Shown here: in pieces, positions 8,004 to 10,063 of the stretch
How positions within the stretch are numbered: the stretch's first letter is position 1
Layout of the letters: every line of letters starts with the position of its first letter
Assembly (NCBI GenBank): GCA_902783735.1
Contig: CACZSE010000057.1
Span: 1-10,063, forward strand
Reading direction: 5' to 3'
Source: an uncultured Lachnospiraceae bacterium
Lineage (GTDB): Bacteria > Bacillota > Clostridia > Lachnospirales > Lachnospiraceae
Length of the DNA: 10,063 nt
The notes under the pieces: generated by a model
The model's database searches: none
Told to the model about the DNA's origin: nothing
What the model saw: the letters and a program-made list of their open reading frames with translations, nothing else
Position numbers and translations under genes: made by a program

Positions 8004-9659
8004 ATGGCAAAGATTACAATTGGCGGGATTACAAAAGAATATGCAAACGGTACTGATTTCGAGACTATTGTAAACGAGTATCAGGATGAATACGGCGGTG
8101 AGATAGCTCTCGTTACCGAAAACGGAAAGATCAGAGAACTTCACAGAAAGGTTAAAGACGATGCGACCTTGGAATTTATAACCCTTAGAGACAGCATCGG
8201 ACATAAGACCTATGAAAGAAGTGCTACCATGCTTTTCGTAAAAGCATTAAGCGATGTTGTTGGTTCTAAAAAGAACGGCAAAGTAAAGGTTGAATTCTCC
8301 ATAGGAAAAGGTGTATACTGCTCACCTCAGGGAGACTATAAGGTTACGGATGATCTTGTTGAGCATGTAAACATGCGCATGAATGAGCTTGTGGAAGCAA
8401 ACATTCCCATCATCAAGAAGACCTATCCCATCGGAGAGGCCGTTAAACTGTTCGAGGAACAGGGAATGACCGATAAGGTTAATCTTTTTAAGTATCGCAT
8501 GAGCTCATCTGTAAACGTTTACAGCATAGAGGATTATCATGATTATTATTACGGATATATGCTTCCGAGTACCGGATATATCAAATCCTTCATAGTACTT
8601 GCATATGAGAAAGGATTCCTGCTGCTCTTACCCGACAAAAACGATCCATTTAATCTTGAGACATTCGAACCCAGAGAAAAACTATTTAAGAGCATGGAGA
8701 CAACTACCGACTGGGGAGTTGCCATGGGTATCGGGACCGTTGGCGATCTGAATAACAAGATCTGTGACGGAGAACTCGAGGACATGATCCTTGTTCAGGA
8801 GGCTTTGCAGGAGAGAAGGATCGGTGAGATAGCAGGAGAGATCGCAAAGAGAGAAGGCGTAAAATTCGTCATGATTGCAGGTCCCAGTTCATCCGGAAAG
8901 ACAAGTTTTTCACACAGACTTTCCATCCAGTTAAGGACCCACGGACTCAAGCCGCATCCTATCGGTGTTGATGATTATTTCGTAAACAGGGAAGACACTC
9001 CCCTTGATGAAGACGGTAATTATAACTTCGAATGTCTCGAAGCTATAGACGTTGAAGGTTTTAACAACGACATGGTGGCTCTGCTTGAAGGAAAAAGAGT
9101 AGAGATGCCTTCATTTAATTTCAAGACCGGTCACAGAGAATATAACGGAAACTATCTGCAGCTCGGTGAAGACGACATTCTTGTAATAGAAGGTATTCAC
9201 GGACTCAATGATAAGATGAGCTACAGACTTCCCACCGAGAGTAAATTCAAGATATATATCAGCGCTCTTACATGTTTAAATATAGACGGTCATAACAGGA
9301 TACCTACAACCGACGGCAGACTGTTACGACGTATCGTAAGAGATGCAAGGACCAGAGGCAACCAGGCAAAGCGTACTATCGAGATGTGGCCCAGCGTAAG
9401 ACGCGGCGAAGAAGAGAACATCTTCCCTTATCAGGAAAGCGCAGATGTACTTTTCAACTCTGCAATGATATTCGAGATCGCAGCCCTGAAGCTGTATGCT
9501 GAACCATTGCTTCACAATATAGGAAAAGACGATCCCGAATATCATGAGGCACAAAGACTGTTGAAATTCCTCGGATATTTTGTTAGTATACCTTCCGACA
9601 AGATCCCTATCAATTCAATTGCAAGAGAGTTTGTCGGCGGAAGCATTTTTAAAGTTTGA
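8004..9659 (+). CDS. Nucleoside kinase (uridine kinase/phosphoribulokinase fold) with ThrRS-like TGS and editing-type N-terminal domains
   Basis: The C-terminal half is a P-loop kinase of the uridine kinase/phosphoribulokinase group, expected to phosphorylate a nucleoside at the 5' position. Visible motifs are Walker A GPSSSGKTS (293-301), GVDDYF (321-326), Walker-B-like ILVIEGIHGL (392-401) and the arginine-rich RIPTTDGRLLRRIVRD (432-447). The first 60 residues resemble a TGS domain. Residues 65-230 resemble the second additional (editing) domain of threonyl-tRNA synthetase, including a segment like DDLVEHVNMRMNELVEANIPI, but the paired HxxxH histidines are not kept (HKTYERSATML). The 551-residue length fits a known fused clostridial family. 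ATG 8004 has AGAGGA 7 nt upstream. The gene follows trmK after 47 nt, probably in the same operon, and a long palindrome starts 6 nt after its stop. The exact substrate is not decided by the sequence, so no symbol is given. Confidence 0.88.
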   Translation: MAKITIGGITKEYANGTDFETIVNEYQDEYGGEIALVTENGKIRELHRKVKDDATLEFITLRDSIGHKTYERSATMLFVKALSDVVGSKKNGKVKVEFSIGKGVYCSPQGDYKVTDDLVEHVNMRMNELVEANIPIIKKTYPIGEAVKLFEEQGMTDKVNLFKYRMSSSVNVYSIEDYHDYYYGYMLPSTGYIKSFIVLAYEKGFLLLLPDKNDPFNLETFEPREKLFKSMETTTDWGVAMGIGTVGDLNNKICDGELEDMILVQEALQERRIGEIAGEIAKREGVKFVMIAGPSSSGKTSFSHRLSIQLRTHGLKPHPIGVDDYFVNREDTPLDEDGNYNFECLEAIDVEGFNNDMVALLEGKRVEMPSFNFKTGHREYNGNYLQLGEDDILVIEGIHGLNDKMSYRLPTESKFKIYISALTCLNIDGHNRIPTTDGRLLRRIVRDARTRGNQAKRTIEMWPSVRRGEEENIFPYQESADVLFNSAMIFEIAALKLYAEPLLHNIGKDDPEYHEAQRLLKFLGYFVSIPSDKIPINSIAREFVGGSIFKV

Positions 9660-9664
9660 TGATA

Positions 9665-9828
9665 CAAGCGTGATCTGTTGAAAAGGGATCAGAAATTTTT
9701 TCATTCGAGACGTCCGCAGCGCCGGTCCTTAGGCGGTGTTTTTTACCGCCTTAGTACCGCTGCGCGAGGATACAGTGCGAACGGTCGAGAATGGAAAACA
9801 TTTTGATCCGTTCAGCAGATCACGCTTG
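9665..9828. repeat. 164-nt long imperfect palindrome between kinase gene and rnpB
   Basis: The ends are perfect 13-bp inverted repeats: CAAGCGTGATCTG (9665-9677) and its reverse complement (9816-9828). Pairing continues inward to 9682/9811 and then through GGATCA/TGATCC (9686-9691 with 9804-9809), TTTTTCATTC/GAATGGAAAA (9697-9706 with 9789-9798, one G-T), CGCA/TGCG (9715-9718 with 9776-9779) and GCGC/GCGC (9719-9722 with 9762-9765). It ends with AGGCGGT/ACCGCCT (9731-9737 with 9745-9751) around the loop GTTTTTT. By hand about 60 pairs form, with short internal loops and one 10-nt bulge at 9766-9775. No open frame of note and no flanking direct repeat is seen. It could be a MITE-like insertion, an oversized terminator/processing hairpin, or a structured RNA. 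Confidence 0.8.
9717..9744 (+). terminator. Possible intrinsic terminator of the dgt-to-kinase operon
   Basis: A short GC-rich stem can form between CAGCGCC (9717-9723) and GGCGGTG (9732-9738), with one G-G mismatch, followed at once by six T (9739-9744). This is the usual intrinsic terminator form and lies about 60 nt past the kinase stop. The same GGCGGT bases pair instead with ACCGCC downstream in the longer palindrome, so the two folds exclude each other. A second T6 run at 9696-9701 after a weak TGATCT/GGATCA stem is a less convincing alternative. Confidence 0.4.
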
Positions 9829-9843
9829 CGAAAACACGAGAAA

Positions 9844-10063
9844 AAAACAAGCAGGACAGGTGATCGCGGCAGCATTAGCTGACGAGGAAAGTCCGGGCTT
9901 CACAGGGCAGGATGCCGGACAACGTCCGGTGGAGGCGACTCCCAGACCAGTGCAACAGAAATATACCGCCCCTTTGGGGTAAGGGTGAAATGGCAGTGTA
10001 AGAGACTACCGCCTGTGTGGTAACAGACAGGGCACATGTAAACTCCATCCGAAGCAAGACCAA
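9844..10063 (+). ncRNA. rnpB: RNase P RNA, bacterial type A, 3' end outside window
   Basis: This is the catalytic RNA of RNase P, which removes 5' leaders from tRNA precursors. Conserved elements occur in order: GACAGGTGATCGC near the 5' end (9855-9867), the P4 strand GAGGAAAGTCCGGGC (9884-9898), CAGGGCAGGATGCC, a P8 hairpin CCGGAC-AAC-GTCCGG (9915-9929), P9 GGAG-GCGA-CTCC with a GNRA loop, GACCAGTGCAACAGAA, GGTAAGGGTGAAA, P13/P14 hairpins with GTAAGAG and GGTAACAG, and finally GTAAACTCCATCCGAAGCAAGACCAA. The order matches E. coli RNase P RNA, so this is type A, as expected in Clostridia. P3 (CAGC-ATTA-GCTG) and P12 (CCCC-TTT-GGGG, 9969-9979) are very short. The 5' end is estimated from alignment to E. 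coli to within about 10 nt. The 3' part, with the P4 partner and P1 return strand, lies beyond the edge. Confidence 0.95.

Follow-up and report, generated by a model that had tools for sequence, protein, structure and literature searches.

Bacterial hairpin MITEs, as described in passages of PMC2229807 and PMC10969869, are non-coding elements of about 100-200 bp which lie mostly between genes and form a long stem-loop. Those named Correia/NEMIS, ERIC, YPAL/RU-2 and Rickettsia palindromic elements are the closest known kinds to the family of elements described here; according to the same passages, they have no transposase of their own and, in several cases, show target duplications. The family differs from them in that its centre is conserved across genera while both arms and both ends vary strongly yet match each other, and also in its long arms (well over 60 bp), the lack of TA ends and the host group; the passages on such elements searched in PMC10969869 hold no mention of Clostridi-. 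REP/REPIN and CGTC-tagged repeats resemble the family as intergenic palindromes with high copy numbers and head-to-head pairs, and the CGTC repeats additionally in being without a known transposase (PMC3733652, in the parts consulted). By contrast, REPs are given there as 20-40 bp long with an unpaired tag, compared to roughly 160-300 bp with target duplications for the elements described here, and the phyla listed for CGTC repeats exclude Firmicutes.

A different line of work concerns the arms of hairpins. Template switching has been described as a way to copy changes from one arm to the other, and Monttinen and Loytynoja (2022) proposed that single events of this kind yield perfect stems and compensatory changes of several bases (PMC8794818). 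That work deals with RNA genes; in the present case the same footprint is found in a palindrome that is mobile and shows few traces of wobble intermediates. In open-licence papers, as far as their text was accessible to the search, no account of such a Lachnospiraceae repeat was found, and four literal sequence strings had no match in open-licence papers. The hairpin analysed below is probably one copy of a non-autonomous palindromic hairpin MITE family in which the palindrome is upheld at the DNA level, the upkeep probably being due to template switching.

The hairpin between a kinase gene and rnpB

The window is the whole stretch of 10,063 nt that was analysed, from the genome of an uncultured Lachnospiraceae bacterium; its features are collected in Table 1. 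A sequence-only reading had described a 164-nt palindrome filling the gap between the kinase gene and rnpB, with perfect 13-bp ends and about 60 hand-counted pairs, held to be far beyond a normal terminator and far beyond chance. The minimum free energy fold of 9660-9850 is a single hairpin with the same coordinates (-89.3 kcal/mol) and contains 64 pairs, of which 4 are G-U; the ends CAAGCGTGATCTG (9665-9677) and CAGATCACGCTTG (9816-9828) pair perfectly over 13 bp. Shuffled versions of this stretch reached a mean of -48.4 (sd 4.1, z -9.92), with 0 of 200 equally stable. As the kinase reading frame ends at 9659, 5 nt separate its stop codon from the start of the hairpin. The spacing to rnpB had been estimated at about 16 nt; the 5' end of rnpB according to Rfam (9848) lies 19 nt beyond the hairpin. 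Pieces of the missing rest of rnpB match the start of another contig of the same genome, C165.

Table 1. Features of the window around the hairpin, in window coordinates
Feature	Position	Strand	Basis or remark
Whole hairpin (palindromic extent of the inserted element)	9665..9828	+	Fold; absence in 7 of 7 relatives
5' arm	9665..9714	+	In its own genome (assembly 77% complete) matches only itself or its own reverse complement (E<=0.001)
Conserved family part	9715..9788	+	Covariance model R1, 71 bits, E 2.8e-16 (this copy is one of the 16 sequences used to build R1)
Conserved core hairpin CCGGTCCTTAGGCGGTGTTTTTTACCGCCTTAGTACCG	9722..9759	+	Two conserved mismatches; two-base bulge just 3' of the core
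Mini-hairpin GT-GCGA-AC	9775..9782	+	GNRA tetraloop class
3' arm	9783..9828	+	Fold
Upstream gene, uridine kinase/phosphoribulokinase family protein	8004..9659	+	PF00485
Promoter-like site TTGAAA-17-TAGTAT, second hexamer preceded by TG	9561..9589	+	Inside the kinase gene; consensus match only
rnpB, class A RNase P RNA	9848..10063	+	Rfam; truncated at the contig end

The position after a stop codon and the U-rich core loop would suit an ordinary intrinsic terminator, but the size of 164 nt at a z of -9.9 does not, no T-run follows the outer stem, and the scan has a single terminator-like site overlapping the hairpin, formed by a small minus-strand stem. A palindrome arising by chance is contradicted by the presence of the same core in many genomes. 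Both of these explanations are refuted.

A dispersed family with a constant core

In BLAST searches, the inner 45 nt of the unit match dispersed places in relatives of the same family, several per genome. All 19 of the fetched places (L082-L100) share the core, and almost all of them form long hairpins whose outer arms differ; in L099 the arms are largely lost and the core is present. A covariance model (R1) was built from 16 sequences including the window copy, aligned by their cores and with a hand-written structure. Of 299 Lachnospiraceae genomes, 126 have matches at E<=1e-3, in a scan with at most 16 candidates scored per genome so that copy counts are minima and weak matches may be chance; in about half of the 126, as read by eye from the table, the best E is below 1e-10. 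Six genomes scanned more fully contain, at E<=0.01, at least 133, 49, 26, 20, 12 and 5 copies, with the highest count being a lower bound because 150 candidates were scored per genome. In a class-wide scan of 291 genomes, 6 had a match at E<=1e-8, all of them within Lachnospiraceae. The family occurs in gut and rumen bacteria, and the hosts among the matches listed for the core pattern include Coprococcus catus, Eisenbergiella tayi, Butyrivibrio, Robinsoniella, Hungatella, Mediterraneibacter and Blautia. No match was obtained with the exact core pattern in IMG/VR, in a distant search of plasmids with the window unit, or in phages with one Coprococcus catus copy as query.

Plain BLAST of the window unit against its own genome (77% complete) gave no second copy. 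This reflects a limit of sensitivity, as the covariance model did recover copies there: of 12 R1 matches five are strong (E<=4e-11), two others look like variants by eye, and the remaining ones lack such a fold. Matches in this genome (G000) on contigs C155, C157, C206 and C327, the last of them weak, lie within about 250 bases of the contig start, as would be expected if the repeat breaks the assembly. For annotation, this means a repeat with more than 100 copies in some gut and rumen Lachnospiraceae, which probably also breaks assemblies. Short, non-coding and dispersed in many copies, the family agrees with MITEs in these respects. The sequence-only reading had made both its mobile-element and its RNA interpretation depend on other copies and on compensatory changes in relatives, and both were found.

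In the orientation of the window, each element consists of an arm, the core (CCGGTNCTTAG-stem-loop-CTTAGTACCG) with its two conserved mismatches, a CT bulge directly 3' of the core, the GNRA mini-hairpin and the other arm. The loop of the mini-hairpin is GNRA in 93 of 95 aligned copies (GAGA 31, GAAA 30, GCAA 18, and others). In genome G324, from which 56 distinct copies were read, the core is nearly constant and the arms are variable, with a mean identity between copies of 0.87 for cores and 0.61 for left arms. Even in 92 copy pairs with cores identical at 65 or more of 66 positions, the identity of the left arms is 0.75, while the left and right arms within one copy match at 0.90. The end sequences are specific to lineages (GTAACAGTTCAG, CAATGTCATTAA, GGGTGTAGATAA, TAGGCGATTGC and GTTACTGTTCAC).

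Several related structures were seen beside the typical copies. A 196-bp element (L163:12201-12396) has GTAACAGTTCAG-like ends, a similar mini-hairpin and the variant core CCAGCGCTTGGC...AAGCTTAGCAC; further 196-bp pairs are present in L211 and L233, and the pair in L233 has an 8-nt direct repeat. A palindrome of less than 60 bp at L246:1725-1781 has the same GTAACAGTTCAGCC ends without the core and is perhaps a minimal relative of the element. A second type of long-armed hairpin with a different core (around GCCGTCCATGGC), found at L163:18254-18500, is repeated in G324 and its genus with 72-95% identity; it has flank sequence in common with the first type and often adjoins a copy of it.

Insertion sites and candidate movers

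Among 19 relatives of the same genus, 10 have another gene before rnpB, and G005 and G011, where the site falls at contig ends, were not judged. In all 7 relatives with the kinase gene directly before rnpB (G001, G007, G009, G012, G014, G015 and G019), the hairpin is absent and the gap measures about 15-60 nt; G001 instead has a short terminator-like stem. Therefore, the hairpin is an insertion in the lineage of the window. In the genus of G324, three copy-bearing sites are empty in sister species. At one of them, site A, G358 has the empty form and G357 an insert of 343 nt. This insert includes one copy of the 10-nt direct repeat TTACATCAGT, which is present singly in the empty G358 site, with the exact ends of the insertion being ambiguous. 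Insertion polymorphism as known from MITEs is thus seen at the window site as well as in the genus of G324.

Direct repeats point in the same direction for part of the family. Of 20 full-length G324 copies from a young subfamily, five (L367, L370, L371, L377 and L380) have, as judged by eye, an 8-nt direct repeat abutting GTAACAGTTCAG-like palindromic ends, and one further copy matches at 7 of 8 positions; at least 4 of the 20 stretches have no repeat, and in 4 the script did not locate the core. In a scan of 204 distinct copies, with ends defined by an inverted match at 9 or more of 12 positions, 19 have an abutting non-palindromic direct repeat of at least 8 nt and 185 do not; repeats of 6-7 nt were found in 3 copies and of 5 nt in 11. 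When the right flanks were swapped between copies, the average was 0.2, compared to 22 of 213 for the real flanks, a figure that still includes palindromic 8-mers. Target duplications of about 8-9 bp therefore exist at part of the family, while the ends of the window copy show no clear duplication on inspection.

A MITE-like non-autonomous element was among the roles first suggested for the hairpin, and it is supported by the many dispersed copies, the empty sites in relatives and the 8-9 bp repeats at part of the copies. Speaking against it are the end sequences, whose differences between lineages are unusual for a MITE, the lack of a direct repeat at the window copy and in 185 of 204 copies, and the fact that no transposase is tied to the family. 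We infer that a transposase of some type, supplied in trans, would insert the elements mostly between genes and thereby create the target duplications of about 8-9 bp, and that the copy now separating the kinase gene from rnpB in the window lineage moved by the same route.

Two transposase families, Y1 and IS66, were tested as movers and rejected, as their presence does not track the element. The Y1 transposase (PF01797) occurs in 9 of 21 element-rich and 15 of 20 element-free genomes, and 12 of the 21 rich genomes have none. This bears on the idea of an element of the REP/REPIN type that is mobilised by a RAYT or another Y1 (IS200/IS605) transposase. Such an origin would fit the intergenic, palindromic, high-copy elements, which are sometimes found in head-to-head pairs 250-350 bp apart, but a Y1 transposase does not accompany the repeats as it does in REP/RAYT systems, and 8-9 bp duplications and units of 160-300 bp are unlike REPs as described in PMC3733652. 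It is very improbable.

An IS66-type MITE, with ends starting with GTAA, 8-bp duplications and an IS66 transposase as the mover, would fit the G324 copies, in which GTAACAGTTCAG ends occur with 8-bp duplications. In addition, an IS66-family element in G034 has GTAAGCGTCAAATAA ends and the 8-bp duplication CTTTTAAC. The IS66 transposase (PF03050), however, is found in 5 of 25 genomes that carry the element, is absent from G324 and occurs in 7 of 20 genomes that lack the element. None of 18 IS66 loci has GTAACAGTTCAG ends or scores as carrying the core, and the ends in other lineages are quite different. The transposase is thus missing from most bearing genomes and the matching ends of such a MITE are not seen at these loci, which makes this origin unlikely. 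The neighbourhood of the copies gave no other candidate: the 25 most recurrent clusters among 712 open reading frames near copies were inspected, and Pfam analysis of ten representatives gave ABC-F-like, histidine kinase, aminotransferase, DegV, GntR and NlpC/P60 proteins along with four reading frames outside any family, and no transposase. Inverted ends are present, and among the fetched DNA no autonomous partner with the same ends was seen.

It is also conceivable, although on balance doubtful, that the element is recognised not by terminal repeats but by its conserved central hairpin, either as folded single-stranded DNA or as a cruciform with the fixed mismatches and the mini-hairpin. Such recognition would account for the conservation of core and mini-hairpin, but not of ends and arms, from one genus to another. 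If true, ends could have any sequence, one arm could be re-copied from the other, and the arms would evolve in a self-homogenising manner.

Two further differences between G324 and related genomes were noticed. At L168:10119-10492 in G324, another palindromic stretch lies inside the core of one copy; the copy of G357 at this site is uninterrupted, and G358, G356 and G355 have no copy there. Compared with G324, a 1.7-kb segment (L167:13137-14860) has the opposite orientation in G355, G356 and G357; G358 shows no such inversion.

Paired change in the arms almost without wobble

In an alignment of 95 copies, 94.4% of cells pair, and 473 cells have changed on both sides compared to 14 on one side; the score was 0.517 against 0.145 in shuffles. 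With one fixed loop-closing pair left out, there are 18 G-U pairs among about 2160 cells, along with 36 A-C mispairs, 24 of them at one fixed pair. The control was rnpB of 30 genomes from the order; with RNAalifold supplying the pairs, it had 515 double and 141 single changes, 303 G-U pairs among 2712 cells and 15 A-C mispairs, so that the frequency of G-U in the element is far below that in rnpB (Fisher p 2e-55). Selection at the RNA level tolerates G-U pairs and passes through G-U intermediates. The wobble-poor paired change of the element stem departs from this RNA type of covariation and instead fits copying from arm to arm in DNA.

Two further comparisons extend this to the arms and to individual copies. 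In the arms of 186 copies (of 193, with 7 left out for short alignments), G-T mismatches number 137 and A-C mismatches 111 of 8184 positions (p 0.11 against equality). Between sister species, five orthologous copy pairs, with 36 gapped cells set aside, contain 15 pairs that changed on both sides and are still Watson-Crick; 6 lost their pairing by a single change, 3 gained it and 3 changed otherwise. Internal arm duplications are present in both arms of the same copy at L167:19549, L169:11515 and L169:5567.

The whole element would thus be viewed as an inverted repeat around a conserved core. In the chromosome, DNA polymerase may slip from arm to arm at the DNA hairpin and copy the changes of one arm into the other. 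According to this proposal, the arms diverge quickly but in step with each other because template switching copies changes across, and the core would be held by selection in the meantime. The matched arms carry the footprint expected of template switching, from which we infer it as their cause. Two observations run against a purely DNA-level explanation, namely the RNA-like GNRA mini-hairpin and the slight excess of G-T over A-C in the arms.

The main rival is a dispersed functional RNA whose stem is selected as RNA, either a small RNA, as had been considered earlier for the hairpin, or a spacer between operon mRNA and rnpB cut by RNase III. The very strong covariation and the GNRA loop, whose letters vary although 93 of 95 copies have it, are what such an RNA would show, and the location between a promoter-like site and rnpB means that the hairpin is probably transcribed. 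Nevertheless, wobble pairs are almost absent, unlike in rnpB, and the mismatches in the arms are nearly strand-symmetric. The orientation towards flanking genes is inconsistent as well, with 18 ++, 14 --, 12 -+ and 4 +- among 48 intergenic copies by crude gene calls. Rfam, searched with both the gathering cut-off and relaxed E-value thresholds, has no family for the hairpin and gave only sub-threshold matches to ssnA and FTX_2 at chance level, and the hairpin is missing at the same place in relatives. A structured RNA is thus disfavoured and quite unlikely as the explanation of the family.

The promoter-like string 9561-9589 recurs in 5 of the 6 relatives checked for it and, judging from the sequence, is a possible rnpB promoter upstream of the hairpin. 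If this predicted promoter drives rnpB, the insertion would form part of the pre-rnpB 5' leader, and its transcript would fold into a long double-stranded hairpin, a predicted and likely substrate of RNase III; processing by RNase III of a transcript that reads through the hairpin into rnpB is plausible on this prediction.

Under the preferred reading of a mobile palindrome maintained in DNA, mobile DNA can also produce strong base-pair covariation, a signal commonly taken to prove a functional RNA, and the near absence of G-U pairs offers a simple flag for covariation at the DNA level. The family also provides a large natural set of palindromes with a common core, differing arms and orthologous copies in sister species, which makes template switching and step-by-step compensation directly testable against each other as answers to the old question of what keeps the arms of long inverted repeats matched.

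Exchange between copies may add to the variation of the elements. In L144, L180 and L354, the last being site A of G357, a longer alternative 5' segment lies beside the core. The orthologous G324 copy at site A has the same arms with the short form, which suggests exchange between copies.
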